NCBI RefSeq assembly: GCF_024105655.1
Contig: NZ_JAAAMH010000002.1
Coordinates: 248,001 to 312,000 of the forward strand
Direction: 5' to 3'
DNA: 64,000 bases
Origin: Aliihoeflea sp. 40Bstr573
GTDB taxonomy: Bacteria; Pseudomonadota; Alphaproteobacteria; Rhizobiales; Rhizobiaceae
The notes below the pieces were generated by a model. That model had not been told where the DNA came from, ran no database searches, and saw only the letters and a program-made list of their open reading frames with translations. The position numbers and the translations under genes are program-made. This document shows, piece by piece, positions 49,175-64,000 of this stretch (positions are counted from its first letter, which is position 1; each line of letters begins with the position of its first letter).

Positions 49175-49723
49175 ATGGCTGCCGATATCGATTTCAAGAC
49201 GGGGCTGCTCGGTGCAGTGCCGAGCCTTCGCGCGTTCGCGGTTTCGCTGTCGCAAAATTCCGACCGTGCCGACGACCTCGTCCAGGAGACGCTGGTCAAG
49301 GCGTGGGACAAGCAGTCCTCCTTCCAGCCGGGCACCAATCTCAAGGCGTGGCTCTTCACCATCTTGCGCAACGAGTTCTATTCGCAGATGCGCAAGCGCG
49401 GCCGCGAGGTGCAGGACAGCGACGGCGCAATGACCGCGCGGCTTGCCGTGCATCCCAGCCAGCACGGCTCGATGGATCTCGAGGACTTCCGCAACGCGCT
49501 CGAGCGTTTGCCAGAGGACCAGCGCGAGGCGATCATCCTGATCGGCGCGTCGGGCTTTTCCTATGAAGAGGCGGCCGAGATCTGCGAATGCGCCGTTGGC
49601 ACGATCAAGAGCCGGGTCAGCCGAGCGCGCACGCGACTGCAGGAACTTCTCAAGGTCTCGGGAGAATCCGACTACGGTCCGGACTCGATCGCGGCCCAGG
49701 TGATGGGCTCAAACGCCGCCTGA
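49175..49723 (+). CDS. ecfG: ECF sigma factor EcfG of the general stress response
   Basis: A 182-residue sigma factor with region 2 (DLVQETLVKAWDKQSSFQPGTNLKAWLFTILRNEFYSQMRKRGRE) and region 4 (LPEDQREAIILIGASGFSYEEAAEICECAVGTIKSRVSRARTRL). The context phyR-nepR-ecfG makes it EcfG/RpoE2, directing RNA polymerase to GGAAC...GTT promoters, eight of which I find between 46.3 and 54.5 kb. Good AAGGGAGA ribosome site. Its end overlaps the converging receiver gene by 15 bases. Confidence 0.96.
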   Translation: MAADIDFKTGLLGAVPSLRAFAVSLSQNSDRADDLVQETLVKAWDKQSSFQPGTNLKAWLFTILRNEFYSQMRKRGREVQDSDGAMTARLAVHPSQHGSMDLEDFRNALERLPEDQREAIILIGASGFSYEEAAEICECAVGTIKSRVSRARTRLQELLKVSGESDYGPDSIAAQVMGSNAA

Positions 49724-54448: not shown

Positions 54449-54539
54449 GTGACAATGTGAAAGGCCGCGACGCCCGCCCCCTGCGAAAAGTTCGGACATC
54501 GCGGCCGTGCAATGGAACATGCACAAGGAGAGATTTATC

Positions 54540-55649
54540 ATGATCCGCACCCTTTTGGCGACTACCGCAATTGCGACGCTCCTTTCTACGGGCGCATTCG
54601 CCCAGACGACCGCCCCTGCAACGACAGATCCGGCAACCGCGCCGGCGACCGAAGCAGCTCCTGCCGATGCTGCCGAAACCCCCGGTCCTGAGCCCGTCGA
54701 AGGTCACCTGGCCTCGAACATCATCGGTGAAGACGTCTATAATGGCGTGGCTGACGACGCTGAGAGCATCGGCACCGTGAACGACATCGTGCTTGGCGCA
54801 GATGGCCAGGCCGCGCTTGTCGTGGTCGGCGTTGGCGGCTTCCTGGGCCTCGGCGAAAAGGACGTGGCGCTCGAATACGAAAGCCTTGAATGGGCGCAGC
54901 GTGAGGATGGCTCGACCTGGCTGATCGCCTCGACGACTCGCGAACAGCTCGAACAGCAGGAAGCATTCGACCGTGATGCCTACGATCCGGACGATGCAGA
55001 CAGCATGGCTGCGACAGGTGCCGCAACGGGTGGCGCTGCGGCGACCGCGACGGCGCCAGCCGATGACGACGCTGCCGACACTGCCGGCGAGATGGCCGAC
55101 GACGCGGGCGACAGCATCGCTGAAACCGCGGATGATGCCGAAGACGCCATGACGGACGACACGGCTGCGACCGACGACGCCGCACAGACCGACGGCATGG
55201 CTGCCGCTCCGGCTGACGGCGAAGACGATGCCGCGATGACCGACGATACGGCCATGGACGACGACGCTGCTGCGGCGGACGGCACGGCGACCGCCGCGAT
55301 CGATCGCACGACGCTGACGGAAGTCGACGCCGCTGGCCTGAGCGCCGACGATCTGATCGGCACGACTGTCTACGGCGCCAATGACGAGAACGTCGGTTCG
55401 ATCGAAGATGTCATCCTCGACGGGGACACTGTCGACGTCGTGACGCTCGAAGTGGGCGGATTCCTCGGTCTTGGTGACAAGGAAGTTGCCGTATCGATGG
55501 AAAACCTCGCCTTCATGACGGACGAAGACGGCGAGCTGTATCTCTACACCTCGTTCACGGAAGAGCAGCTCGAAGCTCAGCCGGAATATGACGAAGCGAC
55601 GTTCGCCGAAGCACGCGACGAGCAGCTTCTGATCAGCCCCGCGAACTGA
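54540..55649 (+). CDS. exported protein with two PRC-barrel domains and an acidic Ala/Asp linker
   Basis: A 369-residue protein with a signal peptide (about 1-21, ending GAFAQ). PRC-barrel repeats lie at about residues 60-145 and 268-355; both carry the phrase VGGFLGLG(E/D)K(D/E)VA. The linker of about 110 residues is nearly all Ala, Asp, Thr, Gly and Glu, so strongly acidic and unstructured. Rhizobial exported PRC-barrel proteins are often stress-induced, and here an EcfG promoter precedes the gene. AAGGAGA ribosome site. Exact function unknown. Confidence 0.85.
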   Translation: MIRTLLATTAIATLLSTGAFAQTTAPATTDPATAPATEAAPADAAETPGPEPVEGHLASNIIGEDVYNGVADDAESIGTVNDIVLGADGQAALVVVGVGGFLGLGEKDVALEYESLEWAQREDGSTWLIASTTREQLEQQEAFDRDAYDPDDADSMAATGAATGGAAATATAPADDDAADTAGEMADDAGDSIAETADDAEDAMTDDTAATDDAAQTDGMAAAPADGEDDAAMTDDTAMDDDAAAADGTATAAIDRTTLTEVDAAGLSADDLIGTTVYGANDENVGSIEDVILDGDTVDVVTLEVGGFLGLGDKEVAVSMENLAFMTDEDGELYLYTSFTEEQLEAQPEYDEATFAEARDEQLLISPAN

Positions 55650-57425: not shown

Positions 57426-58358
57426 ATGATCGACCAGATCAAGGGGCTCCACCACGTTACCGCGATGGCGCGCGACGCCCGCGAGAACAATCGCTTCTAC
57501 ACGGACACGCTCGGCCTTCGCAGGGTCAAGAAGACCGTCAATTTCGACGCGCCGGACGTCTATCATCTCTATTACGCCGATGGCGCCGGCACGCCGGGTA
57601 CGGTGATGACCTATTTCCCCTTCCCCAACGCCGCGCGCGGCCGGCCGGGAACGGGAGAAGTCGGCACGACCGTATTTTCGGTGCCCGAGGGTTCCCTGCC
57701 CTTCTGGGAAAAGCGGCTGGCCGAGCAAGGCGTCGCCGGCATCAAGCCGTCGAACCGCTTTGGCGAGAACGTGCTGCGCTTCGAGGGTCCGGACGGTGAC
57801 GGCCTGGCGCTGGTCGAGACGAGCGGCGATGGCCGTGCCCCATGGACCGGCAACGGCATTGGCGCCGACCATGCCATTCGCGGCTTCCGCTCGGTCTCCA
57901 TGCGTCTGCAGGACACGGAACGTCAGGCCGAGCTCCTGACAGCGATGGGCTACAAGGAAACCGGCAAGGAAGGCGCGGTGCGCCGCTTCGTCGTCGAGGG
58001 CGGTAACGAGGCCAATGTCGTCGATCTCGAGGCCCATCCGCTGATGAATCCGGGACAGCAAGGCGCCGGCTCGGTGCATCATGTCGCCTTCGCGGTCGAC
58101 AACCGCGACGCGCAGCTTGCCGTGCGCAAGGCCTTGATGGAAACGGGCCAGCAGATCACGCCGGTGATCGACCGCGACTACTTCTACGCGATCTATTTCC
58201 GCACGCCGGGCGGCGTCCTGTTCGAGGTCGCGACCAACGAGCCGGGCTTCGACCGCGACGAGGATGCCGCGCATCTGGGCGAAACGCTGAAGCTGCCAAA
58301 GCAGCATGAGCACCTGCGGCCCTACCTGGAACAGAATCTGCAGCCGATCGACGCGTGA
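57426..58358 (+). CDS. ring-cleaving dioxygenase, VOC/glyoxalase family (MhqO/LinE-like)
   Basis: A 310-residue protein with two vicinal-oxygen-chelate modules (residues 5-130 and 148-285). Metal ligand candidates are the His of GLHHVTAM, the His of SVHHVAFAV and the Glu of GVLFEVATNEPG. The family includes hydroquinone-type dioxygenases (MhqO). It starts a unit with an esterase eight bases downstream, which parallels the MhqO/MhqD pairing known in Bacillus quinone defence. Substrate here unknown. Confidence 0.87.
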   Translation: MIDQIKGLHHVTAMARDARENNRFYTDTLGLRRVKKTVNFDAPDVYHLYYADGAGTPGTVMTYFPFPNAARGRPGTGEVGTTVFSVPEGSLPFWEKRLAEQGVAGIKPSNRFGENVLRFEGPDGDGLALVETSGDGRAPWTGNGIGADHAIRGFRSVSMRLQDTERQAELLTAMGYKETGKEGAVRRFVVEGGNEANVVDLEAHPLMNPGQQGAGSVHHVAFAVDNRDAQLAVRKALMETGQQITPVIDRDYFYAIYFRTPGGVLFEVATNEPGFDRDEDAAHLGETLKLPKQHEHLRPYLEQNLQPIDA

Positions 58359-58365
58359 GGCCAAT

Positions 58366-58983
58366 ATGACCACCGACAGCTACAAGCACCGCATCGAAGA
58401 GGGGCAAGCGAATGCCCCTCTCCTCTTCACCTTCCACGGCACGGGCGGCGACGAGCACCAGTTTCCCGACCTTGCCCGCGACCTGATGCCGTCGGCGACC
58501 ATCGTCTCGCCGCGCGGCGACGTTTCGGAAGGTGGGGCGCTGCGCTTCTTCCGCCGAACCGCCGAGGGCGTCTACGACATGGAGGACCTTGCCGCGCGCA
58601 CCGAACGCATGGCCGCCTTCATCGAGGCGATCGTCGCCGAGCGGCAACCGAAAGCGGTGCTCGGGCTCGGCTATTCGAACGGCGCGAACATCCTCGCTTC
58701 GGTCATCTTCGCACGGCCCCACCTTTTCGACGGCGCGGTGCTGATGCATCCGCTGATCCCGTTCCAGCCGCAGGTGGAGGGCTCACTTTCCGGCACCTCG
58801 ATTCTGATCACGGCCGGACGCAAGGACCCGATCTGCCCGCCCAACCTCACGAACCGGCTGGAAAGCTATCTGCAAGGGCTTGACGCAAGCGTCGAGACGG
58901 TCTGGCACGACGGGGCGCATGAAGTGCGGCCGGCCGAAATCGACGCGGCGCGTCAGTTCCTGCGCCAGTGGCAGACCGATTGA
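58366..58983 (+). CDS. alpha/beta hydrolase, MhqD-like phospholipase/carboxylesterase family
   Basis: A 205-residue hydrolase: oxyanion region FTFHGTGGDEHQF, nucleophile GYSNG with Ser near residue 104, acid in GRKDPICP (near 153), and His in WHDGAHEV (near 183). Small cytosolic esterase of the family that includes MhqD. It lies seven bases after the dioxygenase gene, and its stop overlaps the next start, so the three genes are one operon, possibly for detoxification of quinone-like compounds. Confidence 0.87.
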   Translation: MTTDSYKHRIEEGQANAPLLFTFHGTGGDEHQFPDLARDLMPSATIVSPRGDVSEGGALRFFRRTAEGVYDMEDLAARTERMAAFIEAIVAERQPKAVLGLGYSNGANILASVIFARPHLFDGAVLMHPLIPFQPQVEGSLSGTSILITAGRKDPICPPNLTNRLESYLQGLDASVETVWHDGAHEVRPAEIDAARQFLRQWQTD

Positions 58984-59270
58984 TGAGCGAGATCCAACGC
59001 GAGGATGCCGGCTCGAAGGGGCGCTATTTCTTCCGCGGCGCCAATGGCGCCGTGGCCGAGATGACCTATTCCAAGGTCGGCGCCAGCCAGATCATCATCG
59101 ACCATACGGAAGTGCCCGAAGCCTTTCGCGGACAGGGCGTCGGGCTGAAGCTTGTCGAGCGCGCCGTCGCTGATGCGCGGGACGACGGCAGAACCATCAT
59201 CCCGCTTTGCCCGTTCGCGGCGGCGCAATTCCGCAAGCATCCCGAATGGGCGGACACATTGCGGCGCTGA
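58983..59270 (+). CDS. GNAT-like N-acetyltransferase (YidJ/CG type)
   Basis: A 95-residue minimal acetyltransferase with TEVPEAFRGQGVGLKLVERAVADARDDG, the acetyl-CoA-binding loop of the short Acetyltransf_CG family, and the C-terminal PLCPFAAAQFRKHPEW. Its ATG shares one base with the esterase stop (TGATG). Target unknown. Confidence 0.87.
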   Translation: MSEIQREDAGSKGRYFFRGANGAVAEMTYSKVGASQIIIDHTEVPEAFRGQGVGLKLVERAVADARDDGRTIIPLCPFAAAQFRKHPEWADTLRR

Positions 59271-59334
59271 TCGGCCTTTCCTTCGCACGAGAGCGCCATA
59301 GCTGATGAAGGCACAGACTGCGAAGGAGACCATC

Positions 59335-59538
59335 ATGGAAAACGTCTACAAGAAGATCGAGATCGTCGGCTCGTCCAAGAATTCGATCGAGGATGCCATT
59401 CAGGGCGCCGTAGCGCGCGCCAGTTCGACGCTGACCAATGTCGACTGGTTCGAGGTCAGCGAAATTCGCGGCCATGTCGAAAACGGCAAGATCGCGCATT
59501 ATCAGGTCGGACTGAAGATCGGCTTCAAGCTCGAATAG
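59335..59538 (+). CDS. dodecin
   Basis: A 67-residue flavin-binding protein: VYKKIEIVGSSKNSIEDAIQGAVARASSTL...WFEVSEIRGHVENGKIAHYQVGLKIGFKLE is the full dodecin pattern, with the Trp that stacks on flavin. Dodecins form hollow dodecamers that store or buffer FMN, riboflavin or CoA. Strong GAAGGAGA ribosome site. 64 bases after the acetyltransferase gene, perhaps co-transcribed. Confidence 0.95.
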   Translation: MENVYKKIEIVGSSKNSIEDAIQGAVARASSTLTNVDWFEVSEIRGHVENGKIAHYQVGLKIGFKLE

Positions 59539-59627
59539 TCCCTGCCCGCCGTCTCGACGGGCGGGTCGCCATGACTGCTGCGATTGACCTTGGGAGCGTT
59601 TCACCGGGATCGCCGCTTCTGATACTG

Positions 59628-59652
59628 GGAATAAGCGGCACCTGAAAACGTT
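59628..59652 (+). promoter_or_regulatory. ECF-type promoter (GGAAT form) of the sigma/anti-sigma operon
   Basis: GGAAT (59628-59632), 16 nt beginning AAGCGG, CGTT (59649-59652). The same form with a related spacer start (AAAGCGG) stands before the glycine-rich gene at 62760-62784. It is 51 bases before the sigma gene and suggests autoregulation. Confidence 0.6.
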
Positions 59653-59703
59653 CGGCGAGAACACATATGCCTGTGCGGCGATCCTTTCTCGAGAAGACGG
59701 GCG

Positions 59704-60246
59704 ATGATGGGCGTATCCAACGATATCGGCGACGAGCTCATCGCATTCCTGCCCAACATGCGCCGGTTCGCCCTGTCGCTTGCGCGCGCGCCGGACATCG
59801 CCGACGACCTGGTACAACAGGCCTGCGAGCGGGCGCTGGCGAACGCGGCGAGCTTCGAGCCCGGCACCCGCTTCGACGCCTGGATGTTCCGTATCATCCG
59901 CAACCTGTGGATCGACCGGACCCGCCGGCAAAAGACCGCCGGTCCGAGCGAGGACGTCCATGAGCGCCACGACCTCGTCGGCGAAGACGGCCAAAAGGTT
60001 GTCGATGCACGCCAGGCGCTGTCGTCGGTCAAGGACGCACTCGACACGATGCCAGGCGAACAGCGCGAGATCATCATGCTCGTGTGCGTCGATGACCTCT
60101 CCTACAAGGAGGCCGCCGAGGTTCTCGGTGTGCCGATCGGCACCGTGATGAGCCGGCTGGCGCGGGCGCGCAAACGACTTGCCGAATTGACGGGAATAAG
60201 CCCGGCGCCAGGTCGTTCTTCCAGTGCGACGGAAGCAAACCCATGA
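59704..60246 (+). CDS. ECF-family RNA polymerase sigma factor
   Basis: A 180-residue sigma factor with region 2 (DDLVQQACERALANAASFEPGTRFDAWMFRIIRNLWIDRTRRQK) and region 4 (MPGEQREIIMLVCVDDLSYKEAAEVLGVPIGTVMSRLARARKRL). It is distinct from EcfG (49175-49723) and is followed with a four-base overlap by its membrane anti-sigma factor. The promoter it probably reads (GGAAT...CGTT) precedes its own gene and the glycine-rich protein gene. The start could also be the ATG one codon later. Confidence 0.92.
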   Translation: MMGVSNDIGDELIAFLPNMRRFALSLARAPDIADDLVQQACERALANAASFEPGTRFDAWMFRIIRNLWIDRTRRQKTAGPSEDVHERHDLVGEDGQKVVDARQALSSVKDALDTMPGEQREIIMLVCVDDLSYKEAAEVLGVPIGTVMSRLARARKRLAELTGISPAPGRSSSATEANP

Positions 60247-61022
60247 ACGAGCCGATGACTTTCGATGACGCGACATTGATGGCGTTCGCCGATGGCGAAC
60301 TGGACGAGGCGACGGCCACGGCGGTCGAGCGCGCCATGGAAGCCGACGACGCGCTGATGATGCGCGTTGCCGAATTCACGGAAATGCGCGCGGCAACACG
60401 CGACGCGTTCACGCCGCCCGAGCCCGTTCCCCCGGCGCTCGAAGCGGCGGTCCATGGCATGGTCGAGCGACATCGCGCGTCGCAGGCACAACCGGCGTCG
60501 AACGTCGTCTCGCTTGCAAAAGCACGCACCAAGCGCCTCGGCTTTGCGCAGCGGTCCTGGCAATTGCCGCTCGCCGCCTCGCTAGTAATCGCGCTCGGAG
60601 CTGGCTTCATCGCCTACCAGCTCGGCCAGACGCCCGGCACGGCGCCCGAGGGCTCGGACATTGCCGGCTTCTCCAGCGCCGAGATCGACGGCGTGCTCGA
60701 CAACGCCGCATCGGGCGAGGAGATCGCTATCGCCGACGGCGCGGGCCGCGTGCGGCTGATCTCCTCCTTCAACGACCAGAGCGGCGCGCTGTGCCGCGAA
60801 TACGAGGTGGACCGGAGCGCCAGTGCATCCGTGGTCGCCGTCTCGTGCCGCCAGGCAGGCGAATGGGCGATGCGGTTTGCGGTAGCGGCTCCCGCTGGCG
60901 GCGACGGCTATGCGCCGGCCTCCTCGCTCGATGCGCTCGAAGCCTATCTTGGCGCCATCGAAGCCGGGCCGGCGCTGACGGCAGAAGAAGAACGCGCCGC
61001 CCTCGACGAGGCGACGCGCTAG
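60243..61022 (+). CDS. membrane anti-sigma factor
   Basis: A 259-residue inner-membrane protein with an N-terminal anti-sigma domain (DATLMAFADGELDEATATAVERAM), a single membrane segment at about residues 107-127, and a periplasmic C-terminal part of about 130 residues with a Cys pair (GALCREYEVD and AVSCRQAGEWAMRF), which may sense redox or a ligand. The typical zinc ligands of ZAS domains are missing. Overlaps the sigma gene by four bases (ATGA), and overlaps by four the end of the converging kinase-PqqD gene. Confidence 0.85.
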   Translation: MNEPMTFDDATLMAFADGELDEATATAVERAMEADDALMMRVAEFTEMRAATRDAFTPPEPVPPALEAAVHGMVERHRASQAQPASNVVSLAKARTKRLGFAQRSWQLPLAASLVIALGAGFIAYQLGQTPGTAPEGSDIAGFSSAEIDGVLDNAASGEEIAIADGAGRVRLISSFNDQSGALCREYEVDRSASASVVAVSCRQAGEWAMRFAVAAPAGGDGYAPASSLDALEAYLGAIEAGPALTAEEERAALDEATR

Positions 61023-62215
61023 AGCGTCCGCGCAAGCCCCGTTTCCACCAGTCGCGCAATGAGGCCGGCAAGATCGGCCTCGATGCGCGTGCGCGCGACA
61101 TCGGGATATGCCTCGGCAAGTTCGTCGGCGAGGTCGAGCGGCGCGACCGGCGCCGCAAGCGCCTCCCAGATCGCCGCGCCGAGCGCATCGAGCGCGAAGA
61201 TGCCGCCACCCAGACGGTCGGCGAGAAACGCGCCGCCATCCCCCATTGGCTGGAGGACGACGTCTTCGGCGCGCACGATGCGACCGGCGGGCAGGCTTGA
61301 AGGCGTCTGCGCACTGTCGTGCGATGAGACACGCGGCGTGCCGTGCCGAAGTTCGGACTGGGTCGTTGCTACATCGCGCGCGGCAAGATGCGCCAGCAAT
61401 TCGCGGGCATCGGCAAGGGCTTCGTAGCGCAGGAGGAAGGCCGGGCAGTGGCTGGCCAGCCGGTTCATGCGCCGCAGGACGATGTCGGAAGGGGCGGCGT
61501 TGCCGAAATTCTGGACGAGCAGGACTTTCATCGCCTGATCCGGCGCGACCGCAAGAAGCTCCGACCGCACGCCACGAGCGTGCTCGAGAAACACGAAAGC
61601 ATCTGCTTCCCGCCGTTCCCCGAACGGGGCAAGCCGCCCGGGCGGCAGCGTCAGGTAGCGATAGTGGCCGTCGTCCGGTCCCTTGTGGCGCCAGGCATGG
61701 AAGGCGAAGCGGCGGCCGAGCGCGCGCGGCAATGGCAGGCGAAGGCGCGGGCGCACACCAGAGGCGACGATCGCACCGAGTTGATCGCCCCCACAATCGA
61801 CCGGCACGATGTCGTCAGCCAGAATCTGCGCGCCGTCGAAGGCGAGCGCTGCGGCCAGCGTGCTCTTTCCGGCGCGGTGGGAGGACGGGAAGATGAAATT
61901 GCGACCGGCGATCGACACCGCGCCGGCATGAAGGCAAAGCATCGAGGGATCCGTCTCGACCATTCGGTTCAGCAGGATGACCACGAGGCTGCAGGCGGCG
62001 CTCACCGCGCTCGGTTCGCTGAAGCGTCGTCGTCCCGGCTCGTCGATCATGAAGCCCGCCCCGGTTCGACGCACTTCGAGGAACGGTTTGCAGGCGTCCG
62101 AAACGGCGGTCCACGACCAGCCGCGGGTCACGCGTCTCAGGATCGCCAGTACGGGTTCGGAATCGACGAAACGCAGCGGGCGATCCACCAGCGCGCAGGA
62201 ATGATTGGCAGGCAT
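61019..62215 (-). CDS. HprK-type kinase fused to a C-terminal PqqD-like (RiPP recognition) domain
   Basis: A 398-residue protein. Residues about 90-250 follow the HprK-related kinase fold: LHAGAVSIAGRNFIFPS, the phosphate loop SSHRAGKST (111-119; its first Gly is replaced by Ser), and QILADDIVPVD with the catalytic acidic pair. Residues about 318-395 match PqqD: LQPMGDGGAFLADRLGGGIFALDALGAAIWEAL, then a helical end. PqqD domains bind leader peptides of ribosomal peptides; HprK-like kinases phosphorylate some of them. ATG 62215 has a GAGGGA ribosome site. It lies 68 bases after the glycine-rich gene on the same strand. Activity is inferred. Confidence 0.8.
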   Translation of the reverse strand: MPANHSCALVDRPLRFVDSEPVLAILRRVTRGWSWTAVSDACKPFLEVRRTGAGFMIDEPGRRRFSEPSAVSAACSLVVILLNRMVETDPSMLCLHAGAVSIAGRNFIFPSSHRAGKSTLAAALAFDGAQILADDIVPVDCGGDQLGAIVASGVRPRLRLPLPRALGRRFAFHAWRHKGPDDGHYRYLTLPPGRLAPFGERREADAFVFLEHARGVRSELLAVAPDQAMKVLLVQNFGNAAPSDIVLRRMNRLASHCPAFLLRYEALADARELLAHLAARDVATTQSELRHGTPRVSSHDSAQTPSSLPAGRIVRAEDVVLQPMGDGGAFLADRLGGGIFALDALGAAIWEALAAPVAPLDLADELAEAYPDVARTRIEADLAGLIARLVETGLARTL

Positions 62216-62283
62216 CGTGACGTCCCTCACGGATGACGACCGACCGGAGTGTACCGGCCGGCCGTATGTCGGTCATTGATCGC

Positions 62284-62697
62284 CTATCTGAAGCCGAACG
62301 CGCGGCCGATGCTGCGGCCCATGTCCTGCCTTCCGCGGCCGAATGAATCGATCGCCTGGCCGGCGCCACGGCCGAAAGATCCGCCGCGTCCGCCCGACCC
62401 GCGACCACCTGAGCCGCGACCGCCCGAGCCGCCGAAGCTGCCGCCCCCAAAGCCGCCAGAGCCGCCGCCGAAGCCGCCCCCGCCTGAACCGGCACCACCG
62501 CCGGAGCCGCCACCGCCGCCACCGGAGCCTGCCCCACCCCCGGACCCGGCGCCCGAGGCGCGAGCCTGGCTCAATTGCAGCAGCGCCGGTGCGCTGTAGG
62601 CAGCGGCGGCCAAAAGGCCGATCCGGCCAAGCGCGCGGCGACGGCCGAGCGATACGGTTTCGGCCTGCAGGCCGGGATTCCTTGAAGCGTCTTTCAT
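62284..62697 (-). CDS. glycine-rich small protein with Tat-like signal, putative substrate of the kinase-PqqD protein
   Basis: A 137-residue protein: N-terminal 18 residues (possible leader), a twin-arginine-like signal GRRRALGRIGLLAAAAYSAPALLQLSQARA (about 18-47), then about 55 residues of Gly and Ser with a few Phe and Ala, Arg-Gly repeats (GGRGSGGRGSGGRGG), and a short end DSFGRGRQDMGRSIGRAFGFR. Very strong AGGAGGT ribosome site. Its own promoter has the GGAAT...CGTT form. It precedes the kinase-PqqD gene, so it could be the peptide that this enzyme binds and phosphorylates. Low sequence complexity makes any family call unsafe. Confidence 0.7.
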   Translation of the reverse strand: MKDASRNPGLQAETVSLGRRRALGRIGLLAAAAYSAPALLQLSQARASGAGSGGGAGSGGGGGGSGGGAGSGGGGFGGGSGGFGGGSFGGSGGRGSGGRGSGGRGGSFGRGAGQAIDSFGRGRQDMGRSIGRAFGFR

Positions 62698-62759
62698 CTT
62701 GACCTCCTGTTTCGTGGAAGCCGGCCGCACGTGGCGTCGCTGGCCGGTCACCATCGGCA

Positions 62760-62784
62760 AACGGCACGGTCACCGCTTTATTCC
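62760..62784 (-). promoter_or_regulatory. ECF-type promoter (GGAAT form) of the glycine-rich/kinase-PqqD unit
   Basis: Minus strand GGAAT (62784-62780), 16 nt, CGTT (62763-62760), leaving a leader of about 55 nt. Same form as the promoter of the adjacent ECF sigma gene. The rest of 62698-63163 contains no gene I can support; a short inverted repeat AGTTA-AGTC-TAACT lies near 63048-63061 before the binding-protein gene. Confidence 0.6.
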
Positions 62785-63163
62785 GCACGACAATTTTTGC
62801 GGCCAAGGGAGGAGGCCGTCGCGCGACGTTTGCCGACAAACAGCAGGACGGACCTGCAACGGCCGACACCGCCGCCCACAAGAAAGCCTCCCAGCCGCCA
62901 CTGACCGCGTTCGCGCCGCGATGGCACGCGGCAGCGGCATTTCCTCGACGTCGCCTCGCCGGCGGACGGCTTTTTCTGGCCCGCAAAGGCGGGCGCGAAA
63001 TTCCGGTCGCCGTTCAACTTGCCCGATTGCTGCCCTTGCGGAAAAGTAGTTAAGTCTAACTTGCCGCGGGCGAGATTGCGCGTTTCGTCATGTCACTGTC
63101 ACGCAACGGCAGTAGCCGCATCGCAGGCGTCAAGAACGGCGTCTTTTCTCAGGGAGAACGGGT

Positions 63164-64000
63164 ATGACGAAATTGGGGCGCATCCTGTCGGCAGTCGCCG
63201 CCGGGCTGATGGTGACAACGTCGATCTCATCGGCGCAGGACCTTGCCGAACTCGAAGCCGCGGCCAAGGAAGAAGGCATGCTGACGACCATAGCCCTGCC
63301 GCATGACTGGTGCGGCTATGGCGAAGTCATCGCCGGCTTCAAGGCGAGGTATCCCGAGATCACGGTCAACGAGCTCAACCCTGATGCCGGCTCGGCCGAC
63401 GAGCTCGAAGCCGTGCGCGCCAACAAGGACAATACCGGTCCGCAGGCCCCCGACGTTCTGGACATCGGCTTCGCTTTCGGCCCACAGGCCAAGGAAGAGG
63501 GTCTGACGATGCCCTACAAGGTGTCGACCTGGGATTCGATCCCCGACAACGTCAAGGACGCCGACGGCCACTGGTATGGTGACTATTACGGCGTGCTTTC
63601 CTTCGCGGTGAACACCGATATCGTCGAGAACGTGCCGGCCGACTGGGCCGACCTGCTTAGCGACGAATACGCCAACTCGGTCGCGCTTGCGGGCGACCCG
63701 CGCGCCTCCAACCAGGCAATCCTGGGCGTACAGGCCGCAGGCATGGCGACCGGCGCCGAAGCGGGCGAAGCTTCCGGCAGGGCCGGCCTCGACTTCTTCA
63801 AGCAGCTCAACGAGAAGGGCAATTTCGTGCCCACCATCGGTAAGTCGGGCACCTTGGCGCAGGGCGCGACGCCGATCGTCATCTGGTGGGACTATAACGC
63901 CCTTTCCGGCCGCGATGCGCTCAATGGCAACCCGCCCGTGGAAGTTGTCGTGCCGGCCTCCGGTGTCCTCGCCGGCGTCTACGTCCAGGCAATCAGCGCC
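63164..64000 (+). CDS. ABC transporter substrate-binding protein, family 1 (cut by window end)
   Basis: The first 279 codons of a periplasmic binding protein with a Sec signal peptide (about residues 1-24, ending SISSAQ). The mature start DLAELEAAAKEEGMLTTIALPHDWCGYGEVIAGFKARYPEITVNELNPDAGS and DGHWYGDYYGVLSFAVNTDIVENVPADWADLLSDEYANSVAL fit the extracellular solute-binding family used for iron, polyamines or phosphonates; the substrate cannot be read. GGGAGA ribosome site. Further transporter genes would be expected beyond 64000. Confidence 0.85.
   Translation, partial: MTKLGRILSAVAAGLMVTTSISSAQDLAELEAAAKEEGMLTTIALPHDWCGYGEVIAGFKARYPEITVNELNPDAGSADELEAVRANKDNTGPQAPDVLDIGFAFGPQAKEEGLTMPYKVSTWDSIPDNVKDADGHWYGDYYGVLSFAVNTDIVENVPADWADLLSDEYANSVALAGDPRASNQAILGVQAAGMATGAEAGEASGRAGLDFFKQLNEKGNFVPTIGKSGTLAQGATPIVIWWDYNALSGRDALNGNPPVEVVVPASGVLAGVYVQAISA

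Follow-up and report, generated by a model that had tools for sequence, protein, structure and literature searches.

A candidate RRE-guided kinase and its low-complexity partner protein in the regulon of an ECF26-type sigma factor

Serine phosphorylation of peptides that carry a YxxP leader has been measured for two HprK-like kinases, BsfK and LppK, and is sped up by BsfB1, a recognition element (RRE) of the kind that binds leaders of ribosomally synthesized and post-translationally modified peptides (RiPPs)(PMC10368454, PMC13381572). BsfK, like the paeninodin kinase (PMC5067487), acts on lasso peptides, whose YxxPxL leader motif is bound by B1/RRE proteins (PMC10368454, PMC6784204). LppK belongs to the Linear Polyphosphorylated Peptides (LPP) of Popov et al. 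(Nat Commun, May 2026, PMC13381572), which these authors call restricted to Bacillota. LPP precursors are 35–200 amino acids long, their leaders carry YxxP, changes of its Tyr or Pro lower binding, and the phosphates are received by a single Ser, to which LppK adds more than one (PMC13381572). Phospeptin (PMC9259500) is another poly-phosphorylated RiPP. Here we examine a 64,000-nucleotide stretch of Aliihoeflea sp. 40Bstr573 (contig NZ_JAAAMH010000002.1, positions 248,001 to 312,000; the window), which encodes an HprK-like kinase fused to a PqqD/RRE domain beside a Gly/Ser/Arg-rich protein. Our comparisons indicate that the system probably carries out RRE-guided Ser/Thr phosphorylation and export of a low-complexity protein, under a stress-type extracytoplasmic function (ECF) sigma factor of the ECF26 type.

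The sigma and anti-sigma genes converge on the reverse-strand kinase–PqqD gene, which is preceded by the Gly-rich gene. An earlier note on this DNA had described this arrangement, and all four genes are confirmed. The genes and their parts are:

59704 to 60246, forward strand: ECF sigma factor, RpoE6/ECF26-like; sigma-70 r2 and r4 families; 61% identity to the Sinorhizobium meliloti sigma factor adjoining an S8 protease
60243 to 61022, forward strand: anti-sigma factor with a single hydrophobic segment at about residues 108–126, read by eye
61019 to 62215, stop included, reverse strand: HprK-like kinase fused to a PqqD/RRE domain, 398 residues from ATG
61022 to 61279, reverse strand: PqqD/RRE domain, about residues 313–398; Asp381 invariant in 24/24 homologues and aligned to the Tyr-binding Asp of LppB
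61811 to 61930, reverse strand: kinase catalytic stretch with His96, P-loop FPSSHRAGKST (109–119) and Asp134–Asp135, compared with BsfK residues (PMC10368454)
62284 to 62697, reverse strand: Gly/Ser/Arg-rich protein, the predicted precursor, 137 residues
62557 to 62697, reverse strand: leader/Tat-type signal, residues 1–47, with AxA at its end, from the leader alignment
62581 to 62598, reverse strand: YSAPAL, a YxxPxL motif at residues 34–39, predicted to bind the RRE (motif meaning from PMC10368454, PMC6784204, PMC13381572)
62287 to 62556, reverse strand: low-complexity core, residues 48–137, with 13 Ser/Thr in 90; candidate phosphorylation region

Close homologues of the kinase–PqqD protein begin at ATG 62215, not at GTG 62230. 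Pfam and NCBIfam were searched with seven window proteins of 58306–63997, the small open reading frame (ORF) at 58983–59270 being left out. The kinase–PqqD protein matched PqqD (PF05402, 5.4e-11) and HprK_rel_A (TIGR04352, 7.1e-14, at 51.6 bits against a cut-off of 200), and the Gly-rich ORF had no family match. A simple gene caller overlooked some Gly-rich ORFs, including that of the window, and these were taken from frame lists. We regard the Gly-rich ORF as a real gene, because relatives keep the same leader and gene layout and because it differs from the copy in the congener G002 by 48 synonymous versus 13 nonsynonymous codons.

The N-terminal module of the Gly-rich protein carries much of the argument. 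Forty-seven leaders from upstream of kinases, 29 once near-duplicates were removed, aligned almost without gaps to the consensus RRx[A/M]LxRLGL-x5-YxxPx[LIVM]LxL..AxA; six regular-expression matches had been discarded by eye beforehand. Spelled out, the module reads RR, x-[A/M/L]-L, x-[R/K]-L-G-L, five variable residues, Y-x-[A/T]-P-x-[L/V/I/M], L-x-L and A-x-A. R−15, R−14, L−11, G−7 and P+3 are invariant (29/29), and Y0 is present in 28/29. By motif reading the module has the features of a twin-arginine translocation (Tat) substrate, namely a twin-Arg n-region (RR in 29/29), a hydrophobic region and AxA, and the source genome contains TatC. The YxxPxL motif overlaps the hydrophobic core of this signal. 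The leader is also specific. Across 385 genomes of the class, Alphaproteobacteria, strong matches stop at E 3e-8; the next, at 1.3e-5 and 1.7e-5, are partial and come from genomes that also have strong ones, and weaker matches lie mostly in long open frames. The thought that two Tat signals merely resembled each other by chance was dropped, as this specificity disfavours it.

Kinase and leader occur together. Among the 385 genomes, 36 match the kinase profile (E≤1e-15), 35 match the leader (E<1e-7) and 33 match both. At E≤0.01 the leader count rises to 65 genomes, the additional 30 through weak matches alone. When the 12 genomes that supplied rows of the leader profile are set aside, the leader is present in 21 of 24 kinase genomes versus 2 of 349 others (Fisher P 4.5e-29, a value that overstates the number of independent events because the genomes are related). 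Locally, a leader (E≤1e-6) lies within 2 kb upstream on the same strand at 41 of 65 kinase loci, 19 lack one there and five have under 600 bp of upstream sequence. The 65 are matches to the N-terminal part of the kinase, with L030 and L127, matched at the C terminus only, outside the count; since loci were picked by kinase match, and several come from the same or sister genomes, 41/65 is not a random sample. In 13 of the 19 the leader is elsewhere in the same genome: about 37–42 kb away in G458, G515, G638, G725, G727 and G804, 25 kb away in G645 and 119 kb away in G625; in G497, G511, G717 and G809 it is on a different contig, and in G446 it lies on the opposite side of the kinase. The remaining six are L131, with a weak leader match (E 4e-6), three kinase-only genomes, and the low-scoring L168 and L169, whose genomes were outside the leader search. 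A scan of 388 genomes of the phylum with the leader alone gave seven matches. Three are outside the class, and all three have a kinase–PqqD gene directly downstream, an out-of-sample prediction that held. Linkage and co-occurrence, including where the genes are unlinked, thus support a partnership between the Gly-rich and kinase–PqqD proteins, as the earlier note had supposed.

The AlphaFold2 model of the kinase–PqqD protein (mean predicted local distance difference score, pLDDT, 91.5; predicted template-modelling score, pTM, 0.87) places its kinase part in the HprK/PEPCK fold, with Z 16.2 over 271 residues for PEPCK and Z 14.1 over 140 for HprK (1ko7). The HprK-like catalytic set is retained: H96, G116, K117 and D135 in 24/24 aligned homologues, S/T at 118 in 24/24, and D134 in 23/24 (D/E134). 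These residues occur in the same order as those important in BsfK (PMC10368454). The RRE was tested by sequence profile because the structure comparison barely covered this part. The profile, built from 18 homologues, found its best PDB matches in TbiB1 (3e-11), LppB (2.2e-7), PbaB1 (3e-7) and TfuB1 (2e-6). In LppB, D70 bonds the leader Tyr and N33 fixes a Pro kink (PMC13381572). The invariant Asp381 aligns with LppB chain residue 88, which corresponds to D70 given an 18-residue offset deduced from the alignment and the paper's numbering, and the Asn of an 'LN' pair, present in 18/24, aligns with N33. The RRE is fused to the kinase in the window protein and in the other 23 aligned homologues, and is a separate frame in some loci of the class, such as L144. 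These matches support assigning the PqqD domain to the lasso/LPP leader-binding kind, in line with the leader-recognition role suggested for it earlier.

Downstream of the leader, the proteins diverge widely. The 42 distinct linked cores, counted from the 47 rows less four subtilase leaders and L023, range from 15 to 195 residues and all contain Ser/Thr; overall they comprise 20.3% S/T, 34.0% G, 17.6% R/K and 4.5% D/E. Some are built of Gly-Ser-Arg repeats and some of Ser/Arg (SR) repeats (KSRSRSKSRSR), and others have PS/PT repeats containing R or K, or DAS repeats of acidic character; RRSRRSRRS and SRPSYSRPSYS are other SR-like repeats. L023 was dropped for its broken frame: the Gly-rich ORF of the congener G001 is interrupted by a frame change in its repeats (L023, 10035–10528), which is either real or an assembly error. 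In the 19 distinct unlinked cores, a Ser/Thr near the core start is followed 1–3 residues later by Cys (19/19). Unlinked leader genes at L190–L203 (for example G804:C16:205530 and G638:C15:808414) encode short peptides, some in tandem copies.

A scan of genome contigs with the single protein matched only Aliihoeflea sp. 2WW, and profile searches were therefore used. A system confined to the genus was rejected on the profile matches across the class and outside it. Three of the four congeners searched (G001, G002 and G004; L022–L024) share the four genes of the window locus and have, in addition, a subtilase gene divergent from sigma, and the whole set, subtilase included, is also found in G036. 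Shinella sp. and Paracoccus marcusii carry a set on plasmids that is made up of sigma and anti-sigma factors, a subtilase, a small protein with the leader, and a kinase annotated merely as 'PqqD family protein'. Within the genus, each of the four genomes with a kinase has another kinase–PqqD locus, unlinked to the first and divided across contig ends in G002. Besides the kinase it comprises a subtilase and a small protein that ends in RSFSRRSFSRRSFSR, both of which bear the leader of the Gly-rich protein. This second locus, the YxxPxL motif and the subtilase beside sigma in three congeners go beyond the earlier note, which had drawn attention to GGAAT-N16-CGTT before the sigma and Gly-rich genes. 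Both of those sites exist, at 59628 (forward) and 62784 (reverse), together with a third at 60193:

59628 to 59652, forward strand: promoter site GGAATA-N15-CGTT upstream of the sigma gene
60193 to 60217, forward strand: promoter site GGAATA-N15-CGTT within the 3′ end of the sigma gene, upstream of the anti-sigma gene
62760 to 62784, reverse strand: promoter site GGAATA-N15-CGTT upstream of the Gly-rich/kinase pair
G000:C2:30158-33025 (L021): second kinase–PqqD locus of the source genome; it encodes a subtilase that bears the leader and a Ser/Arg-repeat protein, and there is a separate sigma site for each of the two

GGAATA-N15..17-CGTT shows no overall enrichment in the genome (12 sites versus 9 for the reversed control pattern). 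Five of the 12 nonetheless fall in the window locus and the paralogous second locus, upstream of sigma, anti-sigma, the Gly-rich gene, the second-locus subtilase and the second-locus SR-repeat gene. For the two paralogous-locus sites, which are independent of the choice of motif, the Poisson P is ~3e-5. Sigma control restricted to the window locus was rejected, as the genome scan finds sites at the second kinase locus too. The three leader-bearing proteins found in the source genome are all at the two kinase loci, each with an upstream site.

The pattern extends to the 11 sigma-linked loci (window, L022–L025, L117, L119, L120, L122, L124, L126), where distances are approximate because the start codons of several relatives are approximate. 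A site inside sigma, upstream of anti-sigma, is present in 10/11 (exception L120). Every sigma-linked locus with a subtilase (10/10) has a site on the subtilase strand 54–451 bp before the subtilase start or profile start. Upstream of the Gly-rich gene, the site is found in 9/10 loci with GGAATA-N15..17-CGTT and in 10/10 with a looser pattern, L117 being left out as its precursor falls beyond the contig. The leader gene is also preceded by a site in L028, L116, L118 and L121, which have no linked sigma of this type; in three of these four genomes (G028, G1013, G371) a sigma–anti-sigma–subtilase module with sites is located elsewhere. The pattern search found no site in L123, L125 or L127–L147. 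Three congeners have an extra sigma site (L022 10663, L023 10643, L024 11125) pointing right to an ORF of ~473 residues resembling a membrane protein, which adjoins the Gly-rich gene and is absent from the window.

A close known counterpart of the sigma module is that of RpoE6 in S. meliloti (PMC6180224), to which the matching gene set of S. meliloti LMB1 corresponds (sigma 61% and anti-sigma 43% identical to the window). The role of RpoE6 was reported as undefined; its overexpression increased a protease gene, and an RpoE6-dependent promoter within rpoE6, ahead of the anti-sigma gene, has been suggested (PMC6180224). GGAATA/GT promoters and a site inside sigma before anti-sigma are common to the S. 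meliloti module and the window type (PMC6180224), the site inside sigma being found in S. meliloti as well. With these promoters and a downstream anti-sigma partner the window has the marks of ECF26 and, judged from its sequence, the module is of this type, with the kinase–precursor pair coupled onto it. The GGAAT sites accordingly appear to mark a sigma regulon, consistent with the promoters of RpoE6-activated S. meliloti genes, which supports the idea that the pair is served by its own sigma factor. A divergent serine protease beside the ECF26 sigma is widely conserved, though not universal (PMC6180224). It lies beside S. meliloti RpoE6 and in relatives of the window, such as G001, G002, G004, G036 and others, whereas none lies beside the window sigma: the 165-base gap between dodecin and sigma (59539–59703) has no subtilase gene. 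The best profile relatives of the subtilase include the mycosin, PatA/PatG and QhpE proteases, all under cut-off. The S. meliloti stretch (L228), unlike the window, lacks kinase–PqqD and leader protein within the 13 kb examined. Together with a second Sinorhizobium locus and an Aminobacter locus (L228–L230, 13 kb examined), it carries the ECF26–subtilase module without the kinase–precursor pair.

The gene set, leader motif, co-occurrence, promoter sites, predicted fold and catalytic and binding residues all come from comparison of sequences, and the steps that link them would be as follows. The membrane anti-sigma partner would hold the ECF26-type sigma. Once free, sigma would transcribe its own gene, anti-sigma and the precursor–kinase operon, and in trans the second locus with its subtilase, Ser/Arg-repeat precursor and second kinase–RRE. 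The precursor would be synthesized with its twin-Arg leader, whose hydrophobic segment and YxxPxL motif overlap. By clamping YxxPxL, the kinase-fused PqqD/RRE domain would bring the low-complexity tail into the HprK-like active site for phosphorylation of its Ser/Thr residues. Release would expose the signal and permit export, most likely by Tat, with cleavage after AxA. The co-regulated subtilase of related loci may trim or mature the precursor, which is a guess. Binding, phosphate transfer and export are proposed here by analogy with the LPP and lasso kinases, for which binding and phosphorylation were measured; the step order, the route of export, the part played by the subtilase and any envelope or surface function are likewise proposals. 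The core idea of the earlier note therefore has strong comparative support, while its Ser phosphorylation and Tat export stand as inferences.

Several observations weigh against this reading. The first P-loop Gly, important in the Walker motif of BsfK (PMC10368454), is Gly in just 3/24 homologues and otherwise Ser, Ala or Asn, with Ser in the window (FPSSHRAGKS), and three other kinases score 22–36 bits against TIGR04352, which, like the 51.6 bits of the window kinase, is under the cut-off of 200. The equivalent of LppB N33 is Asp in 6/24, the window among them, and most kinase–PqqD homologues have Leu where LppB has its pocket Phe. One leader (L133) has Leu in place of Tyr, and those of P. 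marcusii and G588 are longer by three residues. The congener G003 has no kinase match. G543 (L199) and G802 (L200) have a leader peptide and no kinase even at E 1e-3, the kinase having perhaps diverged or been lost, and G465, G615 and G739 have a kinase without a strong leader. A site upstream of sigma is found in just 5/11 sigma-linked loci (window, L022–L024 with one extra base, and L120), the other six having none within 350 bp upstream. Export by Tat is read from the RR motif and the presence of TatC. Ser repeats, moreover, need not mean many sites, because LPP loads its phosphates on one Ser.

The unusual P-loop, together with the position of the motif within the signal itself, would also fit a signal-peptide chaperone of the NapD type, in which kinase–PqqD masks the Tat signal and its nucleotide-binding domain drives release without modifying the tail; NapD itself binds a Tat signal, overlapping the RR motif (PMC3712460). 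We consider this unlikely: the HprK-type catalytic residues are retained, homologous RRE and HprK pairs are peptide kinases (PMC10368454, PMC13381572), and Ser/Thr is present in every core examined. Slightly less likely still is different chemistry, such as nucleotidyl transfer, use of another acceptor residue or the loading of one site with multiple phosphates, or the need for an unseen partner, with a different modified RiPP-like peptide as product. LppK places more than one phosphate on one Ser (PMC13381572), the Ser/Thr and Cys of the unlinked cores (19/19) hint at one special site and not at tail-wide modification, and PEPCK structures rank above HprK in the fold comparison; the HprK-like peptide kinases of PMC10368454 and PMC13381572, however, phosphorylate Ser.

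The ECF26–subtilase modules that have neither kinase nor leader in 13 kb (L228–L230) could suggest instead that the kinase is unrelated and that the Gly-rich protein, exported for an ordinary structural role, shares with it no more than its regulation and neighbourhood. This we regard as very improbable, strongly disfavoured by leader–kinase co-occurrence that holds even where the genes are unlinked and outside the class, with very different cores. RRE-guided phosphorylation and export of the precursor is the reading we prefer.

RRE-guided peptide phosphorylation, described from Bacillota and lasso clusters, would then extend to a gene set that is widespread in Pseudomonadota, and beyond small peptides its substrates would include exported proteins of low complexity. 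This reading also suggests that a single element can serve both as export signal and as modification leader, supplies candidate targets for ECF26 sigma modules, and provides a leader profile by which the system can easily be found and tested. Envelope or matrix roles of the product are speculation. A wider view, which we offer tentatively and would not yet favour, is that these exported proteins form a new class of bacterial phosphoproteins, with some members like eukaryotic SR-repeat proteins. One N-terminal element would be both Tat signal and RiPP leader, RRE-docked multi-site Ser phosphorylation would check the protein before export, and the phosphorylated low-complexity polymers would work in the envelope or matrix, as part of an ECF26 response in some genomes.

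Beyond the Gly-rich gene lies a gene for a solute-binding protein, from 63164. Elsewhere in the window, 49175–49663 is a further ECF sigma gene, with 37% identity to the sigma at 59704–60246, and the product of 54507–55649 starts with a signal-like segment and has two similar halves, with long acidic Ala/Asp-rich low-complexity stretches lying between them (by eye).

No description of this gene set appeared among the literature matches listed (subscription papers were outside their scope), and the main texts of RRE-Finder (PMC7470986) and a 2025 RRE paper (PMC12710340) contain no word beginning 'kinase'. With HprK-related kinase A (TIGR04352) there is a partial match over the catalytic region, to which the window kinase adds a fused C-terminal RRE. 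Phosphorylated lasso systems (PMC10368454, PMC5067487) share with the window an RRE, an HprK-like kinase and a leader-bearing precursor, and Bsf shares in addition the YxxPxL leader and the same His/GKS/DD catalytic set (PMC10368454). Unlike the lasso systems described there, the window encodes as precursor a protein that bears an export signal, and none of the seven window proteins searched is a macrolactam cyclase, B2 leader peptidase or ATP-binding cassette (ABC) exporter. LPP comes nearest, sharing a PqqD-like RRE, an HprK-like kinase, a YxxPx[V/L] leader, variable linear cores and the lack of a macrocyclase (PMC13381572). As described in that paper, its RRE is discrete, whereas here it is fused to or beside the kinase. 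LPP clusters carry a nucleoside triphosphate (NTP) transferase, an SpI-like leader peptidase and an MsbA-like transporter, none of which is among the seven window proteins searched (no genome-wide search was made), and the extended HQxIxFETxxS part of the LPP leader YxxPxVLxHQxIxFETxxS was not found in our leader alignment. The window system differs further in belonging to Pseudomonadota, in its Tat-type leader with AxA, in low-complexity cores that are for the most part repetitive, and in the ECF26 regulon with a subtilase that some genomes have. Judged by these genes and motifs, it shares the logic of LPP, departs from it in several features and is a distinct variant.

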